In this document: piece by piece, positions 4,253 to 36,648 of the stretch | Numbering within the stretch: position 1 is the first letter of the stretch | Layout of the letters: every line of letters begins with the position of its first letter | Source: a virus | Reading direction: 5' to 3' (one strand) | Virus record (IMG/VR): IMGVR_UViG_3300046505_000296 | Coordinates: 1-36,648 of that record | DNA length: 36,648 nt | Translations under genes and position numbers: made by a program | Notes under the pieces: model-generated | Databases searched by the model: none | What the model saw: only the letters and a program-made list of their open reading frames with translations | What the model was told of the DNA's origin: nothing

Positions 4253-4273
4253 ATTTCTCCTCTCCTTGAGTGG

Positions 4274-5368: not shown

Positions 5369-5391
5369 GTCTCCTCCGGTTGTTTGGTGGT

Positions 5392-14382: not shown

Positions 14383-14651
14383 CCGCACGCCAGGCCACCA
14401 TCATCACCCACACGTTGCGCTTCCTGGAACTGCTCGAAGGAGCCCAGGCGGTGGAGGCTGTTATTCACGCGAGCGTCCAGGGATCGATGAGCCTCTTTGG
14501 TGAAGTGCGGCCATCCTTCGCCGAGATGAGCGAGGCAATCAAGGTGTGTGACGAGCGTGGATGGATTAACGGCGTCGTGAGCCGGGTGAAAGGCGTCATG
14601 AAATGGAACATCACTGACGGTGGTCGGGCCGCGCTCCTGGAGATGCAATGA
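14379..14651 (+). CDS. winged-helix-like protein, 90 aa
   Basis: A helical protein with a C-terminal pattern of a winged helix: EMSEAIKVCDERGWINGVVSRVKGVMKWNITDGGRAALL, where the last part (W-x-ITDGGRAAL) is a common ending of wHTH modules. The start overlaps the upstream stop by 4 bases, and the DUF3486 gene starts one base after its stop codon. It may be a late regulator or a small packaging protein that binds DNA. Unproven. Confidence 0.6.
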   Translation: MTARQATIITHTLRFLELLEGAQAVEAVIHASVQGSMSLFGEVRPSFAEMSEAIKVCDERGWINGVVSRVKGVMKWNITDGGRAALLEMQ

Positions 14652-15230
14652 ATGAGCACGAACAAACCACGCGGCGGTCAGGATTCGCAATTGACGAAAC
14701 TCAAGATGCTGCCCGCTGCCACGCGGGAAGTCATTTGGTCATGGCGCGAGGAATTGAAGGACGGCACGCCGCTCAGCAATGCCGCCATCCGGAATCGCCT
14801 GGCCACGCAGTTTGGGGTGCGGCTGCAGCGCGATGGGCAATTGTCTGTGTTCTGGTCCTGGCAGGCGCACCAAATGCGCACGGAGAGTTACAACGCCAAG
14901 ATCGAGCAGTTCGAGGAGTTTTACGCCAAGCAGAATCCCAATGCCTCACGGGAGCGCGTTCGGGATGCGGCGATTTCGTTTTTCATGACGGAGACGGCCG
15001 CCAATGGGGATCGGGAAGGATTTGTGGATGTGGCCAACCTGGACTTGCGGGAACGCGAAGGCGCGACGCGAGCCAGGTTCGAGGAACGGAAGATCAATGT
15101 GAGCGAACGGCGGGTGGCGCTGCTCGAGCAGAAAGCGGCCGCGTTCGACCAGGCCAAGAAGATTTCAGACAGCAAGCTGACTCCTGCAGAGAAGGATTCG
15201 GAGTACCGCCGCATTTTTGGAATGTCGTGA
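14652..15230 (+). CDS. DUF3486 family protein (Mu gp27-like, probable small terminase)
   Basis: The N-terminal region (LTKLKMLPAATREVIWSWREELKDGTPLSNAAIRNRLATQFGV, shown here as separate helices) is the DNA-binding domain of DUF3486/gp27 proteins, where short 'lP.evr..i...l.....s..ei...l...G' motifs recur. The rest is a long coiled coil (about residues 70-185). At 192 aa it matches Mu gp27. It lies directly before the large terminase and overlaps it by 4 bases (GTGA), as gp27 precedes gp28 in Mu. Expected role: recognition of the packaging start and recruitment of the motor. Confidence 0.8.
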   Translation: MSTNKPRGGQDSQLTKLKMLPAATREVIWSWREELKDGTPLSNAAIRNRLATQFGVRLQRDGQLSVFWSWQAHQMRTESYNAKIEQFEEFYAKQNPNASRERVRDAAISFFMTETAANGDREGFVDVANLDLREREGATRARFEERKINVSERRVALLEQKAAAFDQAKKISDSKLTPAEKDSEYRRIFGMS

Positions 15231-16714: not shown

Positions 16715-16875
16715 TCCGCGACCCCCTCCTAATTGCCCCAGGACGATTTCAGGGGTGTCTATGCCGCGGTCGCGTCCTCCGACGCCACAGCGAGCCAGTT
16801 AAAGCGGGACTTAAGGCGGCGTTTAAGTGGGTTCAACCCTCGTTTTACCATCCCGCCACAGGAGGTGTGGTTTGA
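16711..16875 (+). CDS. small basic protein between terminase and portal, 54 aa
   Basis: An ATG overlapping the terminase stop by 4 bases (ATGA at 16711) opens a 54-codon frame that ends in a 4-base overlap with the portal TTG start (TTGA at 16872). It thus fills the gap precisely. The protein is basic with two Cys (CLC at 16-18) and a C-terminal KWVQPSFYHPATGG. No family is recognised. The double coupling is the evidence that it is real and also supports the unusual portal start. Confidence 0.6.
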   Translation: MIRDPLLIAPGRFQGCLCRGRVLRRHSEPVKAGLKAAFKWVQPSFYHPATGGVV

Positions 16876-19064
16876 AACCCGGATTTTTCACAAAATGGGC
16901 CGGGTCGATCCTCAAGAAATCGCTGGCCCAGCTCACCGCCAACTTCACCCATGGGTTGGATCTGAATGACGCCGGGGCGGTCTCGGCCTTTACCAAGCCG
17001 TTTGCCCAATCCGCCTGGGTGCGGAGCGCCATCAGCAAGGTGGCAGGTCCCATCTCCGCCGTGGATCTGTTCTTTACTGATGATGAGAACGAAGTCGAGG
17101 ATCCGCGCCTGGCTGCTTTCTGGTCCGCACCGGCCTTGAACCCGGATTTTACCCGGATGAGCATCGTGGATTTTAAGGACATCTCGGTGTCCTGGCTGCT
17201 CCTGCGCGGCGAAGTGTTCTACATCCTGGACGATTCCTGGGTGGTGCCGTTCCCCGATGTCGCTGGCGGAATCCGCACCCCGCTCATCATCCCGCGTCCG
17301 GATCGGATGCGTGAAGTGGTCTTTGGCGGGCAGCTTCAGGAATGGGTTTACACGGATGTGGCAGGCAAGCAGACCCATTTCTCACCCGACCGAATCCTGC
17401 AGATCAAACTTTTTAACCCATACAACCAGTGGCGCGGCCTCGGGCCTATGGAAGCGGCGATGATCGCCGCTGGTGGCGACTACGCGGCAGGTCTGTTCGC
17501 CAAGAACACCGCCGAGGCTAATGGGGACCAGGGCGTTTACGTTGTGGCCAAGGGAGGAATTCCGGATGACAAGCAGCGTGAGCAGATCGTGAACCAGCTA
17601 CGCGAGAAACGCGCCATGCAGCAGCGCGGGATCTTTAGGCCCGCATTTCTGACGGGTGACATCACGATTGAAGATCCCAAGGTGCGCGCGGTAGATGTGG
17701 CGTTCATTTCGCAACGGACGGAAGCCCGCCGGGAAATCGCAATCGCTTTCGGCGTGCCGCCGAGTTTCTTTGATCCGCTCGCCAGCTACAGCATCGGCTC
17801 GCAAAGCGACCGGTTCATCTTGATCGAGGAAACCTGCAAACCGCTCGGTGCGCGGCTGTGTGGCGGTTGGGCGGCCATCGCCTCGCATATCATCGCGCGG
17901 CCTGTGACGGCGAAGCTGGATTGGGACGATCATAGTGTGATGCAGGCGGTGCGGCGCGAACGGCTGGATTCAGCGCTGAAACTCTGGGGCACCGGCATGC
18001 CGATGAAAGAAGTTAGTGATTATCTTTCCCTTGAACTGCCCGAGTATCCCGGTTGGGACAGGGGTTTCCTGCCATTGAATCTCGCTCCAATTGACGAAGC
18101 CACACAAAGCTCGACGGACAATCCTGCGCTGGCTGAACCAGACATTGCACCTCCCGATCCGGTCAAGGACGCCATTCGCGCGCTACAGAGCGGCCACCGT
18201 GTTCCAGAGAACAATGGCAGGTGCGGCACGCACTGCGGCTGCAGCGTGGATGAGGAGGCGATGGTCAAGAGCGGTCGCGACCCGAAAGAGATTACCCTTT
18301 GGAAATCCATCGTCTCGAAACGCCGAGAAACCCTCAAAATCTACCTGGCGAAATTTAGCAAGGTGCTGATGATCGCCCGGGCGCAGGTGCTGCGTAAGCT
18401 GGAACGCGCGGCGCTTGAAAAAGCTCTCACGCCGGAGCAACGCTCCACTGCCGCCGACTTCCTGTTTGATCTGATGGGCTTTGATAAGACCTTCCAGTTT
18501 TCGATGCGTGGTGTGGCGCTGGATGCGCTGCAGAAAGCCGGGGACCAGGTGCTGGCCGAAATCGGCAAGGATGAACCCTGGAAGATGCCGCAGGCGGAAG
18601 CCATGCGTTTCCTATCCGAGCGCAAGAGCAAACTCTCCGGAGTGTCTAAGGAAGTTTACGACCGCATCCGCGACAAGATTTCCGAGGGTCTTACCAATGG
18701 CGATCCGCTTTCGACAATTGCCGATTCGATCCGCGCCGAGTTCAACGACATCTCGAAAGTTCGCGGCCTGGTGATCGCCCAAACGGAAACCTCCGCTGCC
18801 TACGGTTTTGGCCGGCACACGGCCATGAAGGAAGCGGGCATCAAGTTCAAGAAATGGCTCACCAGTGGAAACTCCAACGTCCGCGCCGCGCATCAGGACA
18901 TGAATGGGGAGATCGTTCCCATCGACGAACTGTTTCTCGTCGTGGACCCCAGGACCGGCGAGAGCGACGAAATCCTGCATCCCGGCGACTCGGCTGGTGA
19001 ACCGTGGAATGTGATCAACTGCCACTGCGTGGAAGTGGCCAGCAAGGAAGGACCGGAAGAATAA
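16872..19064 (+). CDS. portal protein fused to MuF-like minor head domain, 730 aa
   Basis: Residues 1 to ~400 are an HK97-type portal: a helical start, a domain with FYILDDSWVVPFPD and FSPDRILQIKLFNPYNQWRGLGPMEAA, and FGVPPSFFDP plus a SDRFILIEETCKPLGARL stem-helix region. After a Cys-rich linker (CGTHCGC) the final ~170 residues match the Mu gpF/SPP1 gp7 family (PF04233): AQTETSAAYGFGRHTAMKEAG, KKWLTSGNSNVRAAHQDMNGE, and the ending WNVINCHCVE. Start: TTG at 16872 with AGGAGG 6 bases upstream and a 4-base overlap with the small gene before it. A GTG at 16827 is the alternative. The portal forms the DNA entry ring; MuF aids head assembly or DNA ejection. Confidence 0.9.
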   Translation: MKPGFFTKWAGSILKKSLAQLTANFTHGLDLNDAGAVSAFTKPFAQSAWVRSAISKVAGPISAVDLFFTDDENEVEDPRLAAFWSAPALNPDFTRMSIVDFKDISVSWLLLRGEVFYILDDSWVVPFPDVAGGIRTPLIIPRPDRMREVVFGGQLQEWVYTDVAGKQTHFSPDRILQIKLFNPYNQWRGLGPMEAAMIAAGGDYAAGLFAKNTAEANGDQGVYVVAKGGIPDDKQREQIVNQLREKRAMQQRGIFRPAFLTGDITIEDPKVRAVDVAFISQRTEARREIAIAFGVPPSFFDPLASYSIGSQSDRFILIEETCKPLGARLCGGWAAIASHIIARPVTAKLDWDDHSVMQAVRRERLDSALKLWGTGMPMKEVSDYLSLELPEYPGWDRGFLPLNLAPIDEATQSSTDNPALAEPDIAPPDPVKDAIRALQSGHRVPENNGRCGTHCGCSVDEEAMVKSGRDPKEITLWKSIVSKRRETLKIYLAKFSKVLMIARAQVLRKLERAALEKALTPEQRSTAADFLFDLMGFDKTFQFSMRGVALDALQKAGDQVLAEIGKDEPWKMPQAEAMRFLSERKSKLSGVSKEVYDRIRDKISEGLTNGDPLSTIADSIRAEFNDISKVRGLVIAQTETSAAYGFGRHTAMKEAGIKFKKWLTSGNSNVRAAHQDMNGEIVPIDELFLVVDPRTGESDEILHPGDSAGEPWNVINCHCVEVASKEGPEE

Positions 19065-19748: not shown

Positions 19749-21035
19749 ATGTTACGAAGATCCATTCCCCTGTTAATCGCCGATGCTGCCGAAGGCGCCC
19801 TCTCTGAGACGGAGTTCCAGAAGAAAGTCCTGGCTGGCGTCGAAGCGCTTCAAACCAAAATCACCACACTCGAAACCGGCAAGGCATCCGGCGAGGAAAT
19901 CACCAAAATCAAAACCGAGATCAACAAGATCGCGGCTGATCTGCAGGTAATGCAGCGCACTCAGTCCAAATTGCGAAACTTGCGCTCGGCCAAACCTGGC
20001 CAGGTATCGGATGATGCCGCCCGCCATCTCGGAGCCATCGCGCTCGTCATTGGTCTCCAGCGTGGTCAGATCAAAGGTGCGACCGCTGAAGGACTGGTCA
20101 AAGACATCCTCGGCATCGAGGCCAGGACGGCCGTCGCGTCGTCGGATATTCCGCTGCCGACCGAATATCAGGGTGAAGTTGTCGAGTTGGTTGGCCAATA
20201 CGGCGCCGCCCGGCAATACGGCACCGTGTTCCCGCTTGGCGCGGGCACCGTAAAGTTGCCCAAGCTCACCACTGACCCTGTGTTCACCCTCGTTGCGGCC
20301 AGTGGTGGAGTGGGTGAGAAGGTGCCACAGACGCCCTTCGTGACGTTCACCGCCGAAAAGTTTGGCGGTATCGTCCGGCTGCCGTCCGAAATCGAGGACG
20401 ACAGCATCATCGCCATCGGCCAATTCCTGGCGCGATATGCAGCGCGCAATATCGCCCGCGTCGAAGACACCAACTTCTTTGTTGGCACCGGCGCTGGCTC
20501 AGGGGTGAATGGTTCGGTCGCGGGCCTCACTGCCAGCACCATCACCAACTCCAAGGTTGTGCAGATGGCGGGAACGATGACGGCTTACAGCAAAGCGACG
20601 CTGGCGAACTTCCGCGCGCTGCGCGCCGTTCCGGATGCGCCGATCATTCGCCGTGGTTTCTACTACCTCCATCCCACGATGGAGCAGTTGCTCTCCACGT
20701 TCAACACGGCCGGCGACAAGCCCTACAACCCGAACGCGCAGTTCTCGAACACGGGAGGCCAGCCGTTCCTCTCTGGCGCCACGCTCGACGGCTATCCGAT
20801 CCGTTGGGTGGACGTCCTGCCCGCGTATTCCGCCTCGGCGGTCATCAGCACCGTCTTCGCCCTGTTCGGCGACTGCAGCTACCAGTACCTCGGCGTGCGC
20901 GGCGGCATCCGCTTCGACACATCGATGGAAGCCGGTTTCACCACGGATGAGATCCTCGTCCGTGCGCTGGAGCGTTTCACCATCGGCCTGATGGCCCTCG
21001 GTGCGGTTGCCGGCCTCGAAACAGCCGCAGCCTAA
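19749..21035 (+). CDS. HK97-fold major capsid protein
   Basis: The first ~100 residues are helical (TEFQKKVLAGVEALQTKITTLETGK, then KIKTEINKIAADLQ), matching the scaffolding delta domain removed by the protease. The rest matches the PF05065 capsid fold: VASSDIPLPTEYQGEVVELV (N-arm to E-loop), a GAGTVKLPKLTTD strand, TAEKFGGIVRLPSEIEDDS (spine helix start) and a P-domain helix. The A-domain segment FYYLHPTMEQLLSTF, YPIRWVDVLPA, and the C-terminal GDCSYQYLGVRGGIRFDTS follow. At 428 aa it is typical. A terminator follows within 15 bases. Mu itself has a different head protein, so this is a mixed genome. Confidence 0.92.
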   Translation: MLRRSIPLLIADAAEGALSETEFQKKVLAGVEALQTKITTLETGKASGEEITKIKTEINKIAADLQVMQRTQSKLRNLRSAKPGQVSDDAARHLGAIALVIGLQRGQIKGATAEGLVKDILGIEARTAVASSDIPLPTEYQGEVVELVGQYGAARQYGTVFPLGAGTVKLPKLTTDPVFTLVAASGGVGEKVPQTPFVTFTAEKFGGIVRLPSEIEDDSIIAIGQFLARYAARNIARVEDTNFFVGTGAGSGVNGSVAGLTASTITNSKVVQMAGTMTAYSKATLANFRALRAVPDAPIIRRGFYYLHPTMEQLLSTFNTAGDKPYNPNAQFSNTGGQPFLSGATLDGYPIRWVDVLPAYSASAVISTVFALFGDCSYQYLGVRGGIRFDTSMEAGFTTDEILVRALERFTIGLMALGAVAGLETAAA

Positions 21036-24475: not shown

Positions 24476-24898
24476 ATGCTGGCCCAAATTACAGTCGGCT
24501 CGGGCGGGACCGCCGTCACGACCACTCTGGCTGATGACACGAACAGCCAGGCTGGCGGCAAGCTCGCTTTCACCCTGGGCGATTTCACCTTTGACAGCAT
24601 CGCCCAGGTGAACCCGCTCTTCCGGGGCGCGCGGCCGTTCAAGGCCGCTCGCGGCAATGTGGATACCAAGCTGGCTTTCTCAGGAGCGGTATCCCTGACA
24701 AGTCGCGGGGCTGTGCTGACCTTCTTGAAGACCCTTCAAACCCTCGTTAACACCGCCTGCACCCTGACGCTCGTGGATGGAGCGGTCACGATGACCTGCG
24801 CCAATGCCATCCTCAAATCCGCCCGGCGCGATCCTTCCCTGGGCGTGGGCGTCCGCATCGGCATCCAATATCACTTCGAGATCGACACCATCGCATGA
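24476..24898 (+). CDS. hypothetical tail-region beta protein, 140 aa
   Basis: A beta-rich protein (QITVGSGGTAVTTTLADDTN, KLAFTLGDFTFDSIAQV, CTLTLVDGAVTMTCANAILKSA) ending with GVGVRIGIQYHFEIDTIA. The style resembles small phage tube-like or domain-swapped tail proteins but is not assigned to a family. It begins at the ATG at 24476, 12 bases after the previous stop and in the same frame. Its stop overlaps the fibre gene start by 4 bases. Confidence 0.5.
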   Translation: MLAQITVGSGGTAVTTTLADDTNSQAGGKLAFTLGDFTFDSIAQVNPLFRGARPFKAARGNVDTKLAFSGAVSLTSRGAVLTFLKTLQTLVNTACTLTLVDGAVTMTCANAILKSARRDPSLGVGVRIGIQYHFEIDTIA

Positions 24899-27800
24899 AA
24901 CCGTTAACGCTCCTCACGCTCGCCACGCTCCTCACGCTGCATCTCAATGCCACACCGGTGCAGTTCAACGAGCTCTATTTCACCGGCCAGCCGCTGAACC
25001 GCAAGATCACATTGCAGCTTGATCCACGGTTCAACCCGATGGCGGACAGCTCATCCACATCCGTCATCGGCGGCGTGCCACTGTCTGTCTTTCCCACGAA
25101 TGGCACCGCCACGGTGAACCTGGTGCCTGCGGACTACTTCGTGTTCATCGAGGGGATTCCGAAATTCTGGCGCATCAGCGTGCCGGACTCCACGAACGTT
25201 CAGAACGCGGTGCATCTCCAATCAACACTGCCGAGTTACGCCTATACCAATGCGGTCGGGAACACGAATGGTGTGCAGTTGGCCGCCGGCATCTGGATCA
25301 TTGCGGTCACGAACAACGGGGTCGTGTTGATCAGCGTCAACACGAACAGCGTCATCACCGCGGCGCAATTGGCCGCCCTCGCCGCCACCAACAATCTCGG
25401 CTCCGCCGCATGGCAATCCATCTCCGCCTTTGATCCGGCGGGCGCGGCTCAGGCCGCGACGAATGGCCTCGGATCGGCAGCCCGACAGCCAACGTCGGCC
25501 TTTGATCCCGCTGGAGCTGCTCAGGCCGCGACGAATGGCCTGGGATCGGCGGCTCGGCTGCCGGCGTCGGCCTTTGATCCAGCCGGCGCGGCGCAAGGAG
25601 CCATTGGCGCAACCAACCAAGCCGAGTTCTGGGTTTCAACCAATGCCCTCGGCACGAATGGTATCGGCACCATGTCAGCTCCATTTGACGGTTCAACACG
25701 TGTTTTGTTCGATTCGGTTATGCAGGCAATGCCAACGAATTGCGTGGTCCACCTGATGGCTGGAACTTACGCGACCTGGGGTGATCAAGGATTCCAAATC
25801 AAGACGGAACAAAGAATTCTGGGTGCTGGCATAGACAGAACTATTCTCAAGATTGTCAGTGACGCGCCTATTTTGTCGTGCTGCCCTCCCAATGTTATAC
25901 GCAGCACTTGCACCACATGCGAAAGTGGGTATCCGTATCTCAATTCCGGAATCGAAGTATCAGATTTAACCCTCGATTCAAACACTCAGACGAATGCCGC
26001 CGAACCTCACAATGGAATCGTGTTATACGCCACAAGGAGCGCAATACGCAGGGTGAAATGGATCAACGGTTTTGCTCCGTCGAACGGTAATGAGGCGTGG
26101 GGAATGTGCATCAACGGAAATGAAGGTGCGGCTACCGGTGTCACAATCGAAGACTGTGTAGTTTCGCAATTCAAGGATGGCCCACTGACTGGGTTTGGGA
26201 TCTCGGTCCAGTCGGCGAACCATACTGTAACCGGCAAGATCATTAATAACAGAGCCTATTTGGCTGGCACCACTAACATGGCGTGTATCGCCTTGTCGGT
26301 GTGTGGCGGGAACGGGGTTGAAATCAGTGGAAACTATGTTGAGGGTGCCGCAGAAGGTTTCCATGCCGACACCTATGGCATGACGAATTGCATTCTTGCG
26401 GATAACTTCTTCAACGGTGTTGGTGTCGGATTCATGTGTCAATCGTGGCAACGCAATCAAAACCGTTTCCTAAACAACACGATCTTGCTTGACCCGACGC
26501 ACAATCCGGCAACGGCTTTTTACTCATACGGAGGAAGCACAAATTACAGCATCATCGGGAACAACATCGGATTGAGCGGTAACGCGGTGCCGGGATACAA
26601 TTACCGTTTCCTTGTACTGGCAAACGTTGCGGGCCTCACGATTTCCGGCAACAATATCAATTCTGCTGTGTCAGTTGGAGCGATCGCGGCTTCTTGCACT
26701 GGGACTAACTTTTTTGCCAATTACGACGAACTTGGCAATCCGATTGCGGGTCTGAACACCGCTTTCGATGTCGCCGGCGCCGCCCAAGCCGCCACGAACG
26801 GCCTTGGGTCAGCCGCGCGTCAATCCACCGGCGCTTTCGATTCGGCGGGCGCGGCCCAGACCGCCACCAATGGTCTCAAATCGGCTGCCTGGCATCTCGC
26901 GAGCGACTTTCAATTATTGTTTCCCATCACTTTTACCAATGGCGGTTCAGTCACTGCGGTGTACGGAATGGATAGCGGCATCAGCGCTCACCATTGGATC
27001 AAGGACGGCACTGGTGCGGTGCGGGTTGAACTCTGGCCGGGTTATGAAAGATGGGCAAATGCTTCAGGCTCCTCACAAATTTATTTTGGCGACGATGGGA
27101 TGACAATCAACATTGGTGAAAGAACATACGTATTAGACGAAGACGGTTTCACGCTCGAAAACCTGACAATTTCCTCAGTATTCAAACTTTCGTCAGGCAA
27201 TCCCGCATCAGGCTACGTGCTCACGAGCGACGGCTCTGGCACTGGCACATGGCAGCCGCCGTCAGCCAGTGGCACGAATGGTTCCACCCCCGCCATTGGC
27301 CAGGTTCTGACATGGACCGGTTCGAACTCAATCTGGGCCTTCCCATCATCCGGCGGCACGACGAACTTCGACGATATCGATATCGGCACGATGATCGTCA
27401 CGAATCTCATTTTGTCCGGCAGCACTCCCACTCCGGGCCAGGTGATTACCTGGTCTGGCGCGGCCGCCGTCTGGTCAACGCCGTCATCCAGCGGCACGAA
27501 TGGTTCCTCCTCGGCATCAACTTCAAGCTGCAAATACGATTCGGTGACGAATGGCACCTACCTCTTGGACTTCAGCCAAGCCAATAACTTCGACCTGAAT
27601 GTTTACACGAATGTCACGCTCATCGGTTCAAACTGGCTCTCCGGCTGGACTTCGCTCGAGCGGCACAGCATCATCCTTCACCCGGTTGGAGCCAACCGCG
27701 CGTTGACTCTGCCGGCCAATTGGAGCGCTATTTCCGAGAGCGGATCGAACTCAATTCCCACGAACATTGTCGCCGGCGTGATGCTTGTGCTGGACCTGAC

Positions 27801-28572
27801 GGCTTTCGACGCGGCCGGCCACAGCGTCATGGTCACCGCGAAGCGGGGCGCTGATCCCGGTTTGGCTCTCTACGCGGGCGAGAATATCAGCTCCCTGGAT
27901 CCGACTCTTCAAACTTTCCTGCTCGGCAGCGAGAGCCAGACGAATGTCATTCGCTGCCTCCGTTTCACCGACGCCGAGATTCTCACGCTCGACAACGAAA
28001 TCCAATGGTTCAAGGCGTCCCCTCTCGCCACGAACGCGATCATGCAGTTTCTCGGGGTCGATTGCTGCGGGTACCCGATTTTGTTGCAAATGACCACAAA
28101 TCCGGCCGCGAAAATCTCAAACCTCCAAATTGATTTTTCCGTAGCCCCTTATAATTATGTCGCTCCGGATTCCACCTTCGCGCCTTATTGCCGGCCTTTT
28201 CAGGTTGAAACCTGGGGAAATGGTTGGAAGGTTTTCTTCGATTTTTCCACCAACTACAGCATATACGACATACACGCCGCCAGCGTCACCCGACTGTTCG
28301 ATTACGGGGATTTGTCATCGACGTTTTTTATCGTCGATCCTTTGGTGACGGACCTTTCCTGCTTCACGAACATGCTCTGGGCACCGACTCAGGCGGATTA
28401 CACCAATGTTTTCACGGATTTCACGTATCGCCCTGGCAACTGGACCGTCGGCGGCACAAACTACTACAATCGCTTTTTCCACCTCGCGAATGCTCCGACA
28501 AACACCATCGTGGTGACCACAGGCGGCACCTATGGGTTCGCTACAAATATCTTCCCACTGATCGTCCAATGA
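24895..28572 (+). CDS. large fibre-like protein with signal peptide and beta-helix domain, 1225 aa
   Basis: N-terminus: MKPLTLLTLATLLTLHLNA, a clear Sec signal peptide. Residues ~178-250 hold three 24-residue repeats (AFDPAGAAQAATNGLGSAAR type). Residues ~245-620 are a right-handed beta-helix (pectate-lyase-like) with Asn-ladder strands such as ISGNYVEGAAEGFHADTYG and SIIGNNIGLSGNAV. Two more repeats follow (~623-670). Then come fibre modules with GYVLTSDGSGTGTWQPP, GQVLTWTGSNSIWAFPSS and GQVITWSGAAAVWSTPSS, and a long Thr/Asn-rich beta region. Likely a host-recognition or depolymerase fibre, but the signal peptide is odd for a virion protein. Overlaps neighbours by 4 bases. Confidence 0.75.
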   Translation: MKPLTLLTLATLLTLHLNATPVQFNELYFTGQPLNRKITLQLDPRFNPMADSSSTSVIGGVPLSVFPTNGTATVNLVPADYFVFIEGIPKFWRISVPDSTNVQNAVHLQSTLPSYAYTNAVGNTNGVQLAAGIWIIAVTNNGVVLISVNTNSVITAAQLAALAATNNLGSAAWQSISAFDPAGAAQAATNGLGSAARQPTSAFDPAGAAQAATNGLGSAARLPASAFDPAGAAQGAIGATNQAEFWVSTNALGTNGIGTMSAPFDGSTRVLFDSVMQAMPTNCVVHLMAGTYATWGDQGFQIKTEQRILGAGIDRTILKIVSDAPILSCCPPNVIRSTCTTCESGYPYLNSGIEVSDLTLDSNTQTNAAEPHNGIVLYATRSAIRRVKWINGFAPSNGNEAWGMCINGNEGAATGVTIEDCVVSQFKDGPLTGFGISVQSANHTVTGKIINNRAYLAGTTNMACIALSVCGGNGVEISGNYVEGAAEGFHADTYGMTNCILADNFFNGVGVGFMCQSWQRNQNRFLNNTILLDPTHNPATAFYSYGGSTNYSIIGNNIGLSGNAVPGYNYRFLVLANVAGLTISGNNINSAVSVGAIAASCTGTNFFANYDELGNPIAGLNTAFDVAGAAQAATNGLGSAARQSTGAFDSAGAAQTATNGLKSAAWHLASDFQLLFPITFTNGGSVTAVYGMDSGISAHHWIKDGTGAVRVELWPGYERWANASGSSQIYFGDDGMTINIGERTYVLDEDGFTLENLTISSVFKLSSGNPASGYVLTSDGSGTGTWQPPSASGTNGSTPAIGQVLTWTGSNSIWAFPSSGGTTNFDDIDIGTMIVTNLILSGSTPTPGQVITWSGAAAVWSTPSSSGTNGSSSASTSSCKYDSVTNGTYLLDFSQANNFDLNVYTNVTLIGSNWLSGWTSLERHSIILHPVGANRALTLPANWSAISESGSNSIPTNIVAGVMLVLDLTAFDAAGHSVMVTAKRGADPGLALYAGENISSLDPTLQTFLLGSESQTNVIRCLRFTDAEILTLDNEIQWFKASPLATNAIMQFLGVDCCGYPILLQMTTNPAAKISNLQIDFSVAPYNYVAPDSTFAPYCRPFQVETWGNGWKVFFDFSTNYSIYDIHAASVTRLFDYGDLSSTFFIVDPLVTDLSCFTNMLWAPTQADYTNVFTDFTYRPGNWTVGGTNYYNRFFHLANAPTNTIVVTTGGTYGFATNIFPLIVQ
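25426..25641 (+). repeat. three tandem 72-bp (24-codon) repeats
   Basis: Units begin at 25426, 25498 and 25570, exactly 72 bases apart, each encoding AFDPAGAAQ-type sequence. The third copy diverges in its second half. They sit directly before the beta-helix domain of the large fibre gene. Confidence 0.85.
26761..26904 (+). repeat. two further 72-bp repeats after the beta-helix domain
   Basis: Units begin at 26761 and 26833 and encode AFDVAGAAQAATNGLGSAAR and AFDSAGAAQTATNGLKSAAW. They are the same family as the three copies at 25426, so the repeats bracket the 1.1-kb beta-helix segment. Confidence 0.85.
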
Positions 28573-29171
28573 TCTTCTGCCTCGCACTCGCATCATTGAC
28601 GCTCCTCAGTCCGAAGGCTCTGGACTCAGCAACCACTGCGGGCCAGTCGATGGCTCAGGTGATCTCCCTGCCAGTCGCGCCGGCGCAGGAAAGCAACACG
28701 GTTTACAGCTTATGTCTCGGCTGGGATGCGGCGGCTGATGTGACCGTGACCGGGTATCGCGTTTATTACGGCGTCGCGCCACGCACCTATACGAACACGC
28801 TCGACGCAGGCGGCGCGTTGAGCATCACCGTGAACAACCTCCTGGACGGGCCGCGCTATTTCTACGCCGCCACCGCGTACAATGTTCTGGGGATGGAAAG
28901 CCAATTTTCGAAAGAACTGGCGTGGCCGCCCTACCCATCCGACAGAATGACGATTTCATGGACCAACCGGGCGGCGACCGTGACAATTCTCACAGCCACA
29001 AACAAGAGCCCACTGGCACGCTGGAACACGGCCGCAACGGTCACCGGCACGAATGCCTGGACGGCCCTGCTCAAGCCGGGAATGAACCTATTCGTCACAA
29101 CCATCCAGGGGACTAATTTACCGGCGCTCGGCTCAAACCACATCGTCGGTTGGAATCCATTAAATCTATGA
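28569..29171 (+). CDS. exported fibronectin type III-like protein, 200 aa
   Basis: The start (MIFCLALASLTLLSPKALDS) looks like a Sec signal peptide; the ATG at 28569 overlaps the fibre stop by 4 bases. Residues ~35-115 form a fibronectin type III domain: VYSLCLGWDAAADVTVTGYRVYYGVAPRTYTNTLDAG with W, Y-x-V-Y and a YFYAATAYNVLGMESQFS strand G region. The C-terminal ~80 residues are another beta domain (RMTISWTNRAATVTILTATN). FN3 domains on phage tails aid surface binding. It is part of a coupled block of exported-looking proteins. Confidence 0.7.
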   Translation: MIFCLALASLTLLSPKALDSATTAGQSMAQVISLPVAPAQESNTVYSLCLGWDAAADVTVTGYRVYYGVAPRTYTNTLDAGGALSITVNNLLDGPRYFYAATAYNVLGMESQFSKELAWPPYPSDRMTISWTNRAATVTILTATNKSPLARWNTAATVTGTNAWTALLKPGMNLFVTTIQGTNLPALGSNHIVGWNPLNL

Positions 29172-30976
29172 AAACATTCCTTTTCATCCTTTTCATTGCG
29201 TTCGGCTCCAGTCGAGATGTTTATGGACAAAGCATCCTCCCGGCTGACCGGCTCATCAACTGGTCACTGGCGGGTGTCTCTGGCGGCATCCCGCTCCGCA
29301 CGATCATCTACACGAATATCACCAGTGGCGCGTCGCAGAACGTCATCTCGAACGCCCTGAAATATTGCCCGAGCAATCAAGTTGTGCATCTGGCGGCGGG
29401 TAATTACACCATCAGCGGGGCGTCGCTCATCGTGCCGTCGTATGTCACGCTGCGCGGTGACGGCAGCAATACGGTTCTCAATCTCACGGTCAGTGGAGAC
29501 TATGGCTTTGGCGTCGGGCTTGGCAACGGCAGCAGCTCTGGTTACGTGTCGAGCGGCGCCAGCCACACGCCCATTACAGCCGGCTATTCGAAAGGATCCA
29601 CCAATCTTTACTTTGCTAACGCAAGCCTGTTCGGTGTGGGAGACTTGCTGCTCATCACGTCCGCGCTCGAGCCGTTCATGACGCGGTATGGCGAGGATAA
29701 TTCCGGCAATCACAGCCCGCCCTGGCGAGGCGACTGCAGCTATTGCAACACGCTGGGCGCGGATGGCGGGCTGCCCGAGCATGCGATATTCGGGCAGATC
29801 GTCGTTGTGACAGGCAAGAGCGGTACGGGCGGCACGAACGTGACCATCTCGCAGCCGTTGCATTGGAATTATAAAGCGGCTTTGTCGCCCACCGCCTTCC
29901 CCTATTCTCCAGTCGCAAAATGGGCCGGCCTCGAAGACCTCACTCTCAATGACGCGGGCAGCGGACTAAGGGTTCTGGCACAAATCAATCAGGCGCATTC
30001 CTGTTGGATTTCAAACGTCTGGTTCCTCGACCCGGCTGGCGATTTCGCGTGGATTTCTGTGTCGGCCAATAGCGAGATCGACCATTGCTACATGCGCGGC
30101 GGCCAAAGTCACGGGCCGGGCACAACAGACGACGCCATCAAAATCAATTACTGCGCCAGCCTGAACAAGATCGAGAACAACATCGTTCTGCAAGGCCACG
30201 GCTCGATTATGATCGATTATGGAGCGTCCGGAAACGTCATCGCCTACAACTTCTGCACGAACCAGTGGGATTCGTCTTCCTCGACCATGCTCACACCGGA
30301 TCAGGTGATTCACGACCCGCACCCGATGTATAATCTGTGGGAAGGGAATATCGGCGGCACGTTCAAGCAGGATTCACTATTTGGCAGTTCGAGCCATTCG
30401 ATGCTTCTTCGTAACTGGATGGTGGGCACAAACTGGTGGGCTGGCACCGGTCAATCCACTTACGCCGGCGCTTACATATTTGATTGGGCTGCGAGCACCA
30501 ACACTCTCATCGGCAACATTGCCGGGTGCGCGGGATTTGCCGTCGGAAACACTTCCATTGGCGTCGCTTCAAATGCTATTTCAGGCCATCCCGAGTTTCA
30601 ATTCGGGTATGATTATGCGGAGACGACCAATGCCACCAACGCCATTGCCGGGTTCAGTAGACTTCTGCCCTGGCAGAGCATTATGATGCATGGCAACTAC
30701 AGTTTTGTCACGAGCACGCAGCAGTGGGATGGCGCCATTTCCGGCCAAACACTGCCGAATTCCTTTTACCTCACCAGCAAACCACCATGGTTCGGCACGA
30801 ACAACTGGCCGCCCATTGATCCCGCCGCGGCTACCACGATGACGCTGACCGCTCTGCCCGCCGGCTATCGGTTCATGTATGGCGCTGACGCCGGCGCGGC
30901 GATTCCAGACGCGCCGCGCAATCTTATCGTCGTCGGTACCGTCACAGTCGGCACACTTATCATCTCTCCTCCATGA
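29168..30976 (+). CDS. exported beta-helix (pectate-lyase-fold) protein, 602 aa
   Basis: MKTFLFILFIAFGSSRDVYG is a Sec signal peptide. The mature protein starts like polysaccharide-lyase/glycoside-hydrolase family 28-type folds: NVISNALKYCPSNQVVHLAAGNYTISGASLIVPSYVTLRGDGSNTVLNL, then beta-helix coils (LNKIENNIVLQGHGSIMIDYGASGNVIAYNF). A disulfide-prone CSYC segment is present. No confirmed catalytic set is visible. It could depolymerise a host polysaccharide or bind it. Its ATG overlaps the FN3 gene and its stop overlaps the tape-measure-like gene, both by 4 bases. Confidence 0.75.
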   Translation: MKTFLFILFIAFGSSRDVYGQSILPADRLINWSLAGVSGGIPLRTIIYTNITSGASQNVISNALKYCPSNQVVHLAAGNYTISGASLIVPSYVTLRGDGSNTVLNLTVSGDYGFGVGLGNGSSSGYVSSGASHTPITAGYSKGSTNLYFANASLFGVGDLLLITSALEPFMTRYGEDNSGNHSPPWRGDCSYCNTLGADGGLPEHAIFGQIVVVTGKSGTGGTNVTISQPLHWNYKAALSPTAFPYSPVAKWAGLEDLTLNDAGSGLRVLAQINQAHSCWISNVWFLDPAGDFAWISVSANSEIDHCYMRGGQSHGPGTTDDAIKINYCASLNKIENNIVLQGHGSIMIDYGASGNVIAYNFCTNQWDSSSSTMLTPDQVIHDPHPMYNLWEGNIGGTFKQDSLFGSSSHSMLLRNWMVGTNWWAGTGQSTYAGAYIFDWAASTNTLIGNIAGCAGFAVGNTSIGVASNAISGHPEFQFGYDYAETTNATNAIAGFSRLLPWQSIMMHGNYSFVTSTQQWDGAISGQTLPNSFYLTSKPPWFGTNNWPPIDPAAATTMTLTALPAGYRFMYGADAGAAIPDAPRNLIVVGTVTVGTLIISPP

Positions 30977-32196
30977 GTGACGACACACGCGATTTCAGGA
31001 TCAAGATCACCACCGAGGCTGACACGAGTGGTGTGCGTGAGCAGGATAGCGCTCTCAACGGCCTCGCCGAAAACGATGTCCAGCAGACGAAGCGGATGAT
31101 CGGCGGAAAACATGAGCTCCGGGCCGCAATGAGTTTACTCGGCCACGAGTTCGGAATCCTCGGAGGAATGGTTCATTTTCTCTTTAATCCATGGACAGCG
31201 GCGATTGGCGGAATCCTCGTCGCGACCCGCGCTCTTCATGCAGCGAATAAGTTGCTCGATGACTCAATGGAAGCACTGTCAGGACACATTGGGAAAATTA
31301 GGGATGCATTGCGTGATGTACAGATAGAGGCGATCAAAACCGACAAAGCATTCAACCAAAACCTGGAGAATAATGCGCGAGGCACTCAACTTAAAATTGC
31401 GGGCATCCACACAGAACGTGAAGCCGCAGAAAAGCTCGCGGAAGCCCGCAAGCAATATGAACTCTCCCAGGCGCAAACGCCCGAGGCGAAGATGGCCATC
31501 GAGCAGAGATACGCCGCCTCTGGCGCCGCATCCTCGGCGCAATTCGATCGGCGCGAAATTGCCGCCAAACAATTCGAACTGGATAATCTTGGGCTTGCTC
31601 TCCATGAATCCAAGGCTGCAACCCAGGCGTCTGGCGGCGGACTCTCACGGGAAGAGGTCGAGGCCAGACTCAAAGATTTGCCGAAGAAACTGAGTGACTT
31701 TGATTCTCAGATCACTGCTTTAAAAAAGGTTTCTGAAGACATCAAACCTGGATGGGGAACCCACATACTTGATCAGATCTTCCCTGGTGCATTTAACGCG
31801 CGCGTTTCCACATGGACCGAAACGCTTCCAACAATTTCCGGGCTTGAAGCTGCTCGCAAACAAACCGCTGCCAGCCTGGAGCCATTAACTCGTACCGCCG
31901 CCGGGTATACCGAGCAGGACGCACTTGGCAAGCGAATCGGCGATCTCACTCCCGAACTGGATCAACAGATCAAGACTGCGACCTCGCAAACGCAGAATCA
32001 AAAATTGGTGGATCTCTACAAGGCCGGCGCCGAGGCGCATTCCGAAACGACCAAGCTAACGGAGGAAATAAAGCGCGCCATCGAGTCGGGCAAGGGCATC
32101 TCCGTTGCCACCCTTCAGTCACTCCGTTCCTTCACGGCCTGGCAGGCTGATATTGAGCGACAGATACGCTCCATCAAAAAACCGCGTGTTGAATAA
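30973..32196 (+). CDS. short tape-measure-like tail protein, 407 aa
   Basis: The start MSDDTRDFRIKITTEADTSG is typical of tape-measure proteins ('frikit.eAd..g'), and the protein is almost all helical with coiled-coil segments (AEKLAEARKQYELSQAQ). A hydrophobic segment lies at residues ~52-86 (LLGHEFGILGGMVHFLFNPWTAAIGGILVATRAL), as in tape measures that form pores. At 407 aa it would span a short tail (about 60 nm by the usual 1.5 A per residue rule). It follows the beta-helix gene with a 4-base overlap and precedes the hub-like gene by a 1-base overlap. Confidence 0.65.
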   Translation: MSDDTRDFRIKITTEADTSGVREQDSALNGLAENDVQQTKRMIGGKHELRAAMSLLGHEFGILGGMVHFLFNPWTAAIGGILVATRALHAANKLLDDSMEALSGHIGKIRDALRDVQIEAIKTDKAFNQNLENNARGTQLKIAGIHTEREAAEKLAEARKQYELSQAQTPEAKMAIEQRYAASGAASSAQFDRREIAAKQFELDNLGLALHESKAATQASGGGLSREEVEARLKDLPKKLSDFDSQITALKKVSEDIKPGWGTHILDQIFPGAFNARVSTWTETLPTISGLEAARKQTAASLEPLTRTAAGYTEQDALGKRIGDLTPELDQQIKTATSQTQNQKLVDLYKAGAEAHSETTKLTEEIKRAIESGKGISVATLQSLRSFTAWQADIERQIRSIKKPRVE

Positions 32197-34649
32197 TGTC
32201 CTGGACGCTCGAATATGGCGGTCTGGAGAAATCCTTTGCGACCTGGGGATTTGATGCCGAACACGCCACCGGCGAATTCGCCAACATGGCGTTGGACACG
32301 TTTTCCCTGGCCGTCCCCGGCGCGCATATCGAGGATGACCCCGCGTTCACTTTTGAAAGCCAGGTCATAATCCGCCGCAACCGGACAGTTGCGGGCTCGA
32401 CGTTCTCCGGTGGCGCAATTGAATTTCAGGGCAAACGGCTGTTGCACGTCCTCGAAGGCCGGCCAGAGTTCGAGGGCATCTTCTATCAATTCGCCGGTCC
32501 ATGGTACGATCTGGATCAAACTCCCTACCTCCAGGACATCAAGGTGTACACCGGCGATCCCGATAACCTGGCGGATTTCTGGCAGACGGAGGTCATCCTT
32601 TTCCAGTCGCTCGATGCGATGCAGTCCGGCAGCGTCGTCATGATCACGAATGGCGCTCAGATCCGGCTCATCCTGCAGAGTTGCCTCGATCAATGCGCCG
32701 CCAACAGCCTGGCCGCACCATTCCAGATCGGCTCCATTGATCCCGCGGTGCTGCAACCCTCCTATCAGGTGCGCGATCTCAAATGTTCGGAGGCAATCCA
32801 GATCTGCATGCGCGCCTCGCCGGATTGCAAGGTCTGGGCCGATTACACCACCACGCCGCCGACCATCAATGTCACGCGCCGGACAAACTGCACAGCGGTC
32901 ACCCTGGCGATCGGGGATGGAGTGTCGCATGAGAGCATCAAGCTCACGCCGCGTTACGATCTTCAAGCCAGGAGCGTCACACTCTTTTTCAAGCAGACGA
33001 ACAGCATCAACGGATCAAATTGGGTCGTCACCACGTACCAGCAAGCGGACGCATCGGGATCGAGTGAGGGCATTGGGGCGCCACCCCATCCGGTCGGCGG
33101 CACGCGCGGCGTTGTCCAGACAATCGACATGCAGGGGTTTAAGGAGAGCACGGCCTCGGGCCATCTCGATTGTATGGCCGTGGCCAACACTGCCACATTT
33201 TGGAGAAAGTTTGTGCCTGAGATGGATAGCCAGCGTATCCGGGTCCCAAACACCGGCGGCGCGACAAAGGGTTTTTCCGTCCTTGATTCAATGACGGCCG
33301 TGGATCCTAACACTGGGGCCACAATCAGTCTTTCAAGCTATCCAAACGTCCTGGCGGATGGAACCGGAATTGCACCTTGGATGACACTCTCAGGCGGGGC
33401 GCAGATCAACGGCGTTTTGGCTCTCCTCAAGGTGCATGTCGCGTATGAACAATTCGATGCGGATACCGGAGGCAACGCGGTCCAAATCTGGCCGCGCAAA
33501 GAACTCTCGGCGCGAGTCACTCTCACAAATGGCATCACGGGAAACTACTCGTCAACTCTCTCCTCGGAAGCGGCGGAGCCGATTCCCACCGGCCTGGCGC
33601 CCAACATTTTTTCCGCGCTCAGAGCCCTGCAGTACCACGGCACGATCGAGATCATCGAGCCGGAATGTTCCGGATCAGTTGGCATGGGCAACGTCCTGAA
33701 CCTTTCCGGCGGCCGCTCGGAATGGGAGGCCATGAATGAGCTGATCCAGGAGGTCCACAAACATTATGGCACCGGAAAAACGTCGGTATCCATCGGGCCT
33801 GCCGCTCATCTCGGAGCCGCCGCTCTCACTCAAATTTTCATGGTGAATCGCCTCCGGCGCACATGGAACAACCCTTTGACGCAGGCAACAGGCAAATCGT
33901 CCTCCGGCGCGAGCATTGCGCTTGGAAAGAACGCCCCCAAGGAAAATACGAACTCCGGCGTGCCGGAAATCAGCTATCGTACCGAACTCGGTCCCATCGG
34001 TGGCGATGGCGGCCGTTGGCTCATCATCAAAAACGTGATCGGCGGATCAGGCGGCACGATCGGGGCCAATAGCCAGCCCGGCATTTTTATGTGTCGCTAC
34101 CTCGCGAACGGCGCTCTGGACACCACAGTCCCGCAGATCCGGATCGATGCCTCGGATCTGACCGTGCCGACCGGTCAGACTGCCCTCATTGCCAAATGGC
34201 AATCCTTCCTGGATTCCCTCGGCCACACTCATTACGTGCTCGCCACAGCACCCGTCGCTGGCGGTGGCGCCATCTTCGAGGCGAACATCACCGATATCCA
34301 GAGCGACACCTGGACCTGTGTAAAAACGTCCGGCGGCGATTCATTCACAGTCGCCAAACCGCGATCGATCCGGGGTTCTGTGACATCCTTGACTGTCAAG
34401 GACTGGCAGCCGGATGGCAGCTCTGTCGATCGGGAAATCAATCTCACTTACGACAGCACATTCCGAAAATGCACCGCCGTTCCGGCGGATGGTCAGACCG
34501 CGGGGGAATCCTACATTTTGACGCCGGATATTGTGGTTGCTGCGACAATTATTCTTGTCTCGCAATGCGAGAGCGGAATCGAGGATGTGACTTACCTCGA
34601 TATCACGCCGCGCCAATGGTCTCAAGTCCCCGTTGATCCGCTGCCATGA
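32196..34649 (+). CDS. tail hub/baseplate-like protein, 817 aa
   Basis: The N-terminal part (WTLEYGGLEKSFATWGFDAEHATGEFANMALDTFSLAVPG) resembles distal-tail/hub proteins, and the mid region has hub-like blocks: LNVTRR-type strands, HESIKLTPRYDLQARSVTLFFKQTN, and an ARVTLTNGITGNYSS region. The part around 525-560 has GMGNVLNLSGGRSEWEAMNELIQEVHKHYGTGKTSVSIGPAAHLGAA, a common hub/baseplate ending where a loop precedes the fibre connection. The C-terminal third is a further beta domain. It directly follows the tape measure gene, as expected for hub genes. Confidence 0.55.
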   Translation: MSWTLEYGGLEKSFATWGFDAEHATGEFANMALDTFSLAVPGAHIEDDPAFTFESQVIIRRNRTVAGSTFSGGAIEFQGKRLLHVLEGRPEFEGIFYQFAGPWYDLDQTPYLQDIKVYTGDPDNLADFWQTEVILFQSLDAMQSGSVVMITNGAQIRLILQSCLDQCAANSLAAPFQIGSIDPAVLQPSYQVRDLKCSEAIQICMRASPDCKVWADYTTTPPTINVTRRTNCTAVTLAIGDGVSHESIKLTPRYDLQARSVTLFFKQTNSINGSNWVVTTYQQADASGSSEGIGAPPHPVGGTRGVVQTIDMQGFKESTASGHLDCMAVANTATFWRKFVPEMDSQRIRVPNTGGATKGFSVLDSMTAVDPNTGATISLSSYPNVLADGTGIAPWMTLSGGAQINGVLALLKVHVAYEQFDADTGGNAVQIWPRKELSARVTLTNGITGNYSSTLSSEAAEPIPTGLAPNIFSALRALQYHGTIEIIEPECSGSVGMGNVLNLSGGRSEWEAMNELIQEVHKHYGTGKTSVSIGPAAHLGAAALTQIFMVNRLRRTWNNPLTQATGKSSSGASIALGKNAPKENTNSGVPEISYRTELGPIGGDGGRWLIIKNVIGGSGGTIGANSQPGIFMCRYLANGALDTTVPQIRIDASDLTVPTGQTALIAKWQSFLDSLGHTHYVLATAPVAGGGAIFEANITDIQSDTWTCVKTSGGDSFTVAKPRSIRGSVTSLTVKDWQPDGSSVDREINLTYDSTFRKCTAVPADGQTAGESYILTPDIVVAATIILVSQCESGIEDVTYLDITPRQWSQVPVDPLP

Positions 34650-35434
34650 TCGCTTTTGGCGCACAATCCTCGCGGCTGCACGCCGGCTATCGGACGGCGC
34701 AATTGCCCTCGAACTGGGTTGGATCACTCAACCCTCTCAGCACAAGTATTGGCTTCGGGAATCCAACTTCTCCCCTGCCTTTTGACGCGGTTGACGAATT
34801 TAAATTTGAGGCGCATGTGGATAAGATCGCTGGTTCTGCCCAGGTGACCCTCCTCAAATTCACATCCCCGAATCGGACGTGGAGTCCGGCGACGATTCCC
34901 TCTTCGAACATTCTCGACAGCACGACCTCCTACGGGCCGCATGCGAACCTGTGGTGCCAATGTATTCCCTGGTTTGTTCTGGCGGGGATTACACCGCCGG
35001 CGCGGTCATGGTGTCTGCGAAAAGGGGAATGGAAATTCCAGATCAACCTCTGGGCCAATCCGGTCGTCTCCTGGACGAGATTGGGGTTGTACTTCGGCTG
35101 TCCCTGCGCTTCGACATCGTCCCAAACCGCCTCCCGCATTGGCTCCAATGGTACCACGGCCCGGTCAAACTGGATATTCCAAACCCAATCCTTAATGCCT
35201 GGCTGGAACGTTGGCCCAATCCATCATCATCTCCGGGTTGGTTCATTCTGGCTTCCCAACGTCGAGGTGGCCGCATACTGGCTGGCCAGCATACCGCCGC
35301 CCGCTGATGTCCAGCTCTACACCTTCACTTTTGAGGGGCAACGCCGCCCAACGCCGTATCCCCTCAACCCAGTCTCGACTCTGACATCCTCCCAGGACAC
35401 CACCACCAAGGATTCAATTCCCACGAACCAATGA
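34646..35434 (+). CDS. hypothetical tail protein, 262 aa
   Basis: A beta-rich, Trp- and Pro-rich protein (FKFEAHVDKIAGSAQVTLLKFTSPNRTWSP, EWKFQINLWANPVVSWTRLGLYF, DVQLYTFTFEGQRRPTPYPLNPV). It overlaps the hub gene and the last fibre gene by 4 bases each, which supports the intact frame. A second frame across 34879-35307 also looks protein-like in places, but I keep the one with matching ends. Likely a tail-tip or fibre-attachment protein. No family recognised. Confidence 0.55.
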   Translation: MIAFGAQSSRLHAGYRTAQLPSNWVGSLNPLSTSIGFGNPTSPLPFDAVDEFKFEAHVDKIAGSAQVTLLKFTSPNRTWSPATIPSSNILDSTTSYGPHANLWCQCIPWFVLAGITPPARSWCLRKGEWKFQINLWANPVVSWTRLGLYFGCPCASTSSQTASRIGSNGTTARSNWIFQTQSLMPGWNVGPIHHHLRVGSFWLPNVEVAAYWLASIPPPADVQLYTFTFEGQRRPTPYPLNPVSTLTSSQDTTTKDSIPTNQ

Positions 35435-36648
35435 ACCGCGCGCTTCCAGTCCTCCTGTTGTTTTGCCTGCAGAGTTTTGCGGCCTCGATCCAAATTCCAT
35501 TCGGCACGAATAACCCGGCCAATCCCTGGTGGGTTGTGACCCCGAGCGCGACGGCGATCCAGGGCTGGCAGGGCTGGCAGACGGTGGACACGAACTTTGC
35601 CCAGATCGACGGCGAGATTGCCTCCCTGGCCGGCAGCCAGGCTGATGCTCAAACGAATTCGGTCCTTAACAGCTTCAGGCTGGCCGTCTGGTCAACCAAT
35701 TGTCTGCCCATTTACCAGCAGACATTCTTTGAGCTCCCGACCATTGTCACGAACTTCGCCGGAGCGACGTTCACCTTCTCAAATGTCGCCGCCGCTTTCA
35801 TCTTCTCGACGGACGGCAGCAACTGGCAATTTGGCGCTGAGAATCTCCTCACGAATGTACCGGTTTGGCTGGCATTCACCAACACGGCCCCCTCCGATCT
35901 GATTGGCTTTAACGGCAATGTTGTCATCTCGAACTTGACTCTTTACACGCAACTGCGTCCCGATCTGTGTGGTCGATCAAACTCTGTCATTGGCCAGACC
36001 TTTCAAGTCGGCTCCCCTGTGAGCCCTGCCGATGCCACTCCAAAGAGCTATGTGGATGCGCTGTTGCAGACGCCTGCTTGGCTGCAGGGGGGCGCTCCAA
36101 TCAATCTGAATGGGTACCCACTCAACATCACGCCGAACTTCCGCCTGGTTGGGGATGAGATGAACCTTGCATCCTCCTTATTGCATCTGGAATTCGTTGG
36201 CGGGGATGTTTTCACCATCAAAGGGCCGGCGGCTATTTTTACCGTGATCACGAACTGGGCATTCGTCACGAACTGGGTCACGCTCAATATTCCCACAAAT
36301 GGCATCACCTCACCGATCTTCCCCCAATATACTACGCAGCTTGGGGTTGCCGCCTGGTTGATTGTCACCAATTTCACGAGCACTTACCCTGTTTCCTCCA
36401 ACGGTTGCTATACCCTCCACTTTCCGTATCCAGATCCGCGCACTGCATTCATTCGGTGCGCCTATTATCCCGTTGGCGCGACTTTAATGGCGATCCAGGT
36501 GGACCTGCAGAAGCTCCCCTTCACGGTCACGAATTCAACCGATTCCACCTCCGGCAGTGGCGCTGGGCTCATCCGCTGGGACACCAACTATCTCTACATC
36601 TCTACGGGGACCAACCAATGGAAGCGGGCGGCCCTGGCATCCTGGTAG
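35431..36648 (+). CDS. tail-fibre-like protein with signal peptide, 405 aa
   Basis: MNRALPVLLLFCLQSFAAS is a Sec signal peptide. The mature part contains SPADATPKSYVDALLQ, a very common tail-fibre junction module ('PtdatTKsYVDa'), and ends with GLIRWDTNYLYISTGTNQWKRAAL, a frequent fibre C-terminal module that folds as a trimer tip. Between them lie beta-rich, Asn/Thr-rich segments. The start overlaps the upstream gene by 4 bases, and the gene is complete, stopping at the last base of the window. This is the best candidate for a receptor-binding fibre, although the signal peptide is unexpected. Confidence 0.75.
   Translation: MNRALPVLLLFCLQSFAASIQIPFGTNNPANPWWVVTPSATAIQGWQGWQTVDTNFAQIDGEIASLAGSQADAQTNSVLNSFRLAVWSTNCLPIYQQTFFELPTIVTNFAGATFTFSNVAAAFIFSTDGSNWQFGAENLLTNVPVWLAFTNTAPSDLIGFNGNVVISNLTLYTQLRPDLCGRSNSVIGQTFQVGSPVSPADATPKSYVDALLQTPAWLQGGAPINLNGYPLNITPNFRLVGDEMNLASSLLHLEFVGGDVFTIKGPAAIFTVITNWAFVTNWVTLNIPTNGITSPIFPQYTTQLGVAAWLIVTNFTSTYPVSSNGCYTLHFPYPDPRTAFIRCAYYPVGATLMAIQVDLQKLPFTVTNSTDSTSGSGAGLIRWDTNYLYISTGTNQWKRAALASW

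Follow-up and report, generated by a model that had tools for sequence, protein, structure and literature searches.

Predicted signal peptides on tail-region genes of a Mu/B3-like transposable phage and in the fibre slot of its Verrucomicrobiota relatives

The stretch analysed here, referred to as the window, is the complete IMG/VR virus record IMGVR_UViG_3300046505_000296 (36,648 bases), and the genes in question are late tail-region genes, starting at 24895, 28569, 29168 and 35431, whose products appear to begin with Sec signal peptides (leaders). The left arm of the window carries on the minus strand a MuA-like transposase adjoining a MuB/TniB-like ATPase, and the right arm carries a late operon of the B3 type with terminase, portal/MuF, protease, HK97-type major capsid and tail genes, the protease and several of the tail labels being assigned by position (Table 1). 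By its gene content the window is a Mu/B3-like transposable phage with a packaging gene that has close relatives in Verrucomicrobiota prophages. The identity of its terminase is no higher than about 36% with those of the best listed annotated phages, Pseudomonas phage B3 among these, and reaches 59% with proteins from Verrucomicrobiota genomes, with matches in 49 of the 387 genomes; because of these matches the host was taken to belong to Verrucomicrobiota, the phylum that the search covered. B3-like transposable phages (Pseudomonas B3, Microcystis Mwe-Yong1, Sinorhizobium StopSmel) resemble the window in their MuA/MuB-type transposition genes and in late gene order (terminase-portal-protease-capsid-tail), and their terminases are about 30% identical to that of the window.

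All four genes start with ATG, each overlapping the preceding stop codon by 4 bases. Leaders were scored with a von Heijne-type scorer under a lenient and a strict rule (five of five E. coli signal peptides passed), and scores were compared with those of 3000 shuffles of residues 2-45 of each protein. The leader of the 35431 protein (MNRALPVLLLFCLQSFA, cut before ASI) scored 10.4, a value reached in 1 of 3000 shuffles. Those of 29168 (MKTFLFILFIAFGSS, cut before RDV) and 24895 (MKPLTLLTLATLLTLHLNA, cut before TPV) scored 4.9 and 4.3, values reached in 75 and 26 of 3000 shuffles, respectively; for 29168, an alternative cut between G and Q at residue 20 was judged by eye to be better than the scored site. 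A basic n-region, a hydrophobic core and a signal peptidase I site are present in these three proteins. The 28569 leader (MIFCLALASLTLLSPKALDS, cut before ATT) scored 3.8, which was reached in 489 of 3000 shuffles, lacks a basic residue ahead of the core, and would be missing from a product begun at the in-frame ATG of codon 28. No alternative start is present in the first 50 codons of 29168, so translation of this frame would necessarily include the leader. By prediction, then, the 35431 leader is strong, those of 24895 and 29168 are moderate, and that of 28569 is doubtful taken alone; the initial annotation had listed signal peptides on all four, which stands for the other three and is doubtful for 28569. 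A fifth clear signal peptide, on the 11892 product, had gone unmentioned; judged by eye, this protein looks like a small outer-membrane barrel. Under the lenient rule, four of the eight tail genes from 24476 to 35431 pass, and the chance of at least four of eight at the rate of control phages (11/206) is 4.8e-4. Under the strict rule only 35431 passes among these eight, and elsewhere in the window 11892 passes together with 23326, apparently a false positive.

Leaders recur at the same place in relatives of the window. We compared 20 virus records with related terminases (several of them short fragments; handles with G) and 38 further stretches adjoining related terminases in Verrucomicrobiota genomes, and defined the fibre slot as the variable genes bounded by the presumed tail tube on one side and the tape measure on the other; 24895 and 29168 lie inside this slot, and 35431 lies just past it. 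Genes came from our own caller with guessed starts, and tape-measure positions were set by hand, their identity being supported by profiles in L094, L095 and L100 and positional elsewhere. The slot count covers the 22 records with a match to the tube hidden Markov model (HMM) minus G011, a near-copy of G010. At least one leader-bearing slot gene was found in 15 of these 21 records (17 with G014 and L101, judged by eye). Leaders were predicted on 31/98 slot genes versus 15/189 upstream genes of the same records under the lenient rule (Fisher p 7.6e-7) and on 23/98 versus 11/189 under the strict rule (p 2.8e-5), where the upstream set, in those records that have no terminase anchor, consists of any same-strand genes of the locus and so includes pre-terminase genes in some of them (G013, G014). 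Compared with annotated structural genes of ten control phages, the slot was also enriched (lenient, 11/206 in controls, p 2.8e-9; strict, 6/206, p 5.6e-8). Furthermore, the strict rule was passed by 38/466 real starts versus 25/2031 internal methionines of the same proteins, and in this wider tail-block count, which leaves out L105, L106, L108, L109 and L110 (no recognised tail block), had no block from G001 and includes some blocks extending into host DNA, the rate exceeded that of the controls (5/170, p 0.02). In G012 the automatic match (30977) is probably a wrong start; its larger gene, at 32216, was judged by eye to carry a leader. Outside the 21-record count, records without a tube match had no tail-region leaders in at least L096, L097, L104, L124, L128-L131 and L140; since several more distant prophages thus have no leaders in their tail genes, the trait is common without being universal. 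The statement of the initial annotation that the pattern is hard to dismiss as chance was largely borne out by the excess over the control rate and by the leaders kept in relatives.

Several of these slot proteins are recognisable tail fibres. The 657-amino-acid leader-bearing protein of L139 has a Tail Collar domain (E-value 2e-19), and the leader-bearing slot proteins of L094, L095 and L111 match tail-fibre PHROGs; a known fibre, collar or collagen-like family was matched by slot proteins of these four, and by none of the slot proteins scanned in L099, L100 and L102. The L095 protein has shaft repeats of the type NPHxVTKxQVGLGNVDN, which are common to proteins in 702 phage records, with tail-fibre or minor-tail names in most of the rows listed; unlike L095, none of the ten shaft-matching phage proteins examined, from Felix O1 to crAss-like phages, carries a leader. 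Additionally, a fibre N-terminal domain is common to L102, L103, L105, L107, L111, L135 and L139. It is preceded by a leader in L102, L103, L111, L135 and L139, whereas L105 has it without a leader (and with a weak phage-tail-repeat match) and the start of L107 lies outside the stretch examined, its leader state being unreadable. Because five members bear leaders and L105 does not, one kind of fibre occurs with and without the export signal. Homologues lacking the leader had been named in advance as counter-evidence, and the outcome is mixed: this family has five of seven with a leader, one without and one unreadable, and the 29168 homologue has one. An apparent BppU-type baseplate-binding likeness of the common domain was discarded, as Pfam gave no such match. 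In the reverse complement of L105 (G098 C7), unrelated genes starting near 6226, 8574 and 12560 have an N-terminal stretch of the type APQGRNDSRFAIHDSP in common, which looks as though copies of one element had entered at the beginning of each gene. G015 encodes a leader-bearing fibre (4240-5832 in record coordinates) with repeated motifs of the SxAxGxxAxA type, which may resemble those of YadA-type adhesin heads.

The other late genes gave a different picture. Three further late genes each of L094 and L095 matched tape-measure, tail-assembly and tail-tip families and no fibre family; with these included, no fibre family was matched by any of the ten other late proteins scanned in all (some late genes of L094, L095, L100, L111, L139 and the window). 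On the simplest interpretation, the fibres would be the leader-bearing proteins themselves. Within the window, 24895 had no match in Pfam, PHROG, NCBIfam or PDB, and its N-terminus showed no significant homology to G014 and G015. The single homologue detected for 29168, in G006, has a leader and a pectate-lyase domain (24% identity, E-value 5e-16), and a PDB sequence search with 29168 gave a chance match only. Among the four window proteins a fibre or collar family was matched by 35431 alone, weakly (phrog_17312, E-value 0.0044). Scans of viral contigs gave three C-terminal matches for 35431 and no relative for 24895, 29168, 32196 (presumed hub) or 23326 (presumed tube). Single-sequence AlphaFold models were unusable (mean predicted local distance difference test, pLDDT, of 32 for 29168 and 31 for 35431).

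Table 1. Features of the window, with small leader-bearing proteins of relatives in the last row.
Feature	Position	Strand	Remarks
MuB/TniB-like transposition ATPase	4274..5368	-	phrog_296, E-value 5e-22
MuA-like transposase	5392..7512	-	phrog_310, E-value 2e-14; no Pfam match
Leader-bearing protein, 188 amino acids, C-terminal Phe	11892..12458	+	Leader score 8.9; upstream of terminase region
Terminase large subunit	14648..16714	+	phrog_2, E-value 3e-32
Portal fused to MuF-like domain	16872..19064	+	Pfam match (query began at 16827)
Major capsid protein	19749..21035	+	phrog_10, E-value 4e-35
Presumed tail tube, conserved tail protein, 310 amino acids	23326..24258	+	Label by position; 14 members by own HMM; no PHROG match
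Small tail protein, 140 amino acids, first in fibre slot	24476..24898	+	Relative in G014
Fibre-like protein, 1225 amino acids, predicted leader at residues 1-19 (bases 24895-24951)	24895..28572	+	Repeats of type ATNGLGSAARQPTSAFDPAGAAQ
200-amino-acid protein, leader doubtful	28569..29171	+	Weak fibronectin-III-like match (fn3, E-value 0.002, below cut-off)
Beta-helix (pectate-lyase-like) protein, 602 amino acids, predicted leader	29168..30976	+	G006 homologue matches PF12708; no significant match of its own
Presumed tape-measure gene, closes fibre slot	30973..32196	+	By position; no significant profile match
Presumed hub, conserved tail protein, 817 amino acids	32196..34649	+	Label by position; 14 members by own HMM
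Tail-region protein, 262 amino acids, without leader	34646..35434	+	
405-amino-acid protein, strong predicted signal peptide at residues 1-17 (bases 35431-35481)	35431..36648	+	phrog_17312 tail protein, residues 355-405
Small leader-bearing proteins just past capsid region	L139 7930-8322; L111 848-1237; L036 9206-9757 (G006); L005 5403-5957 (G004)		

The presumed tape-measure gene at 30973 sits where PHROG-confirmed tape measures sit in L094, L095 and L100, and the record ends on the stop codon of the 35431 gene, at its last base. A class 3 lipase gene (12471-13232, plus strand; PF01764, E-value 5e-31), possibly encoding a lysis or envelope enzyme, adjoins the 11892 gene, and the minus strand of the left arm also encodes a Thy1-type thymidylate synthase (2574-3218) and a DUF5131 protein (1415-2320).

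Hydrophobic starts were also seen near the head genes of relatives. The major capsid proteins (PF05065) of G010 (L045 17213-18718; the same in G011) and G014 (L054 7923-9395) begin with about 40 strongly hydrophobic, signal-like residues, a start that the window capsid protein lacks. Cement-like proteins (PF09956 / phrog_673) have hydrophobic N-terminal leaders in G002 (L032 6500-7009), G013 (L053 1152-2198, minus strand), L098 and L136, as does the cement-like protein of G007 (24641-25147). Such head-protein starts may be propeptides removed in head maturation. In the cement-like relatives of L122, L127, L137, L138 and G009, a conserved start of the N[IT]AEGTH type, perhaps a maturation-protease site, seems to be directly preceded by a short basic leader. 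Lastly, small leader-bearing proteins lie downstream of the capsid gene, whose position is partly inferred, in G004, G006, L102, L111, L127 and L139, those of G004 and G006 being homologous.

Known systems offer likenesses and differences. In the ten B3-like control phages, ten terminal tail or fibre-candidate proteins (one is a methylase) lack a leader, unlike the window. StopSmel has two leader-like starts. One belongs to a signal-peptide-like protein encoded beside the capsid gene (L117 18791-19282), and the other, on a tail protein, was interpreted as a membrane segment; hydrophobic leaders close to structural genes therefore occur outside Verrucomicrobiota phages too. PblA and PblB of the Streptococcus prophage SM1 are phage tail proteins that reportedly have no signal peptides and arrive at the cell surface after release via lysis functions. 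No description of signal peptides on tailed-phage tail fibres was found in the literature searched, which was covered in part, and to our knowledge tailed phages are held to assemble entirely in the cytoplasm.

The sequences themselves show the leaders and the way these recur at a fixed place, together with the fibre identity of several relatives and the coupling to the tail operon. We regard the predicted leaders at 24895, 29168 and 35431 as real and as part of a wider pattern in Verrucomicrobiota phages, in that a fibre slot whose proteins carry predicted cleavable Sec signal peptides appears to be widespread in the Mu/B3-like transposable phages of this phylum. On the best reading, the proteins would be phage tail fibres, a familiar class, in a variant form that bears an unusual targeting signal. 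Specifically, we give a probability of roughly 0.4 that 24895, 29168 and 35431 are fibre-type genes of the late operon whose products are exported by Sec and are added to the particle during or after lysis. Since 29 of the 33 leader-bearing genes begin -4 to +30 bases from the preceding gene, the fibre proteins would be made alongside the tail, late in infection. The host Sec system would then export them, signal peptidase I would remove the leader, and folding would take place in the periplasm or at the cell surface; heads and tails would be assembled in the usual way in the cytoplasm, with the fibres docking last, as outer parts, at or after lysis. Long tail fibres of T4 can be added in vitro to finished particles. 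More tentatively, virions might be completed outside the cytoplasm, the receptor-binding fibres, and perhaps the small capsid-adjacent proteins, being exported by Sec, maturing within the periplasm or at the surface and docking on the released particle. The initial annotation had proposed either exported proteins encoded as cargo or leaders with another role in assembly: leader anatomy and recurrence in relatives support predicted Sec export, and the cargo part is less well supported, given that 29 of 33 genes are coupled within the late tail operon and that proteins at the same place in relatives are recognisable tail fibres.

Several observations weigh against this docking of exported fibres. 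No slot leader was found in four of the 21 records (G008, G013, L098 and L136), G006 has two leader-bearing genes ahead of its tube gene, outside the slot, and no fibre family is matched significantly by 24895, 28569 or 29168 themselves. A secreted-type host protein in an Opitutaceae metagenome-assembled genome, outside a phage by its neighbours, is related to 29168 over 42 residues. A need for disulfides was rejected as a reason for export, cysteine not being enriched (0.86% vs 0.82%), and amino-acid make-up was rejected as proof of export, several control fibres being alike. Furthermore, for P8625, an isolated Verrucomicrobia siphophage whose terminase groups with Verrucomicrobia prophages, the available text of its description states that the authors ran SignalP and found a signal peptide in no protein (PMC4642752). 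With P8625 lacking signal peptides and the collar proteins of the phylum mostly lacking leaders, a phylum-wide trait was rejected as well.

The same leaders would fit equally well if the proteins were late products that never join the virion, namely fibre-derived adhesins, depolymerases or receptor blockers released to the periplasm or medium before lysis, with roles such as receptor masking, a block to superinfection or the freeing of progeny from debris. This is the main alternative and a serious one, if somewhat less probable. It suits the beta-helix, lyase-like members better (the G006 proteins with PF12708), it agrees with the secreted host protein related to 29168, and in P1312 a phage protein that has a signal peptide was interpreted as being secreted to block superinfection (PMC4569894). 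Leaders were also found on 3 of 29 readable collar-domain proteins in Verrucomicrobiota genomes, in phage or host contexts that were not distinguished (30 loci, chosen by score and so mainly small collar proteins; L159 looks by eye like a fourth). However, the tight coupling within the tail operon, the fibre and collar families among the slot proteins and the lack of a second fibre gene among the late genes tested of L094 and L095 count against it.

The leaders might also be uncut membrane anchors that dock tail or head parts at the inner membrane, or propeptides cut by a phage protease, as the hydrophobic starts on the capsid and cement-like proteins described above would suggest. We consider this unlikely, because the fibre leaders follow the signal peptidase I pattern, with a basic start, a short core and a site of the A-x-A type, often followed by Q, and the head leaders, which may be propeptides, differ from them in look. 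It is quite improbable that the genes were captured from secreted host proteins with the leaders left as functionless remnants: the secreted beta-helix host relative and the Asn/Thr-rich, low-charge make-up of the leader-bearing proteins, as expected of secreted proteins, agree with capture, but leaders recur across unrelated fibre families in most of the relatives counted and several control fibres are likewise Asn/Thr-rich and low in Lys. Chance or wrong start codons might account for 28569 taken alone, and the scorer does give false positives such as 23326; as an account of the whole pattern, this is refuted by the leaders kept in homologues and by 29168, with no other start in its first 50 codons, and it is the least probable of the alternatives.

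If the docking of Sec-exported fibres is correct, these phages would follow a two-compartment assembly route; if the proteins instead stay off the virion, fibres that phages make and export to act at the host surface ahead of lysis would be a widespread class. Either outcome would change how receptor-binding proteins are recognised in uncultured phages: a gene whose product has a signal peptide is commonly labelled as host or cargo.

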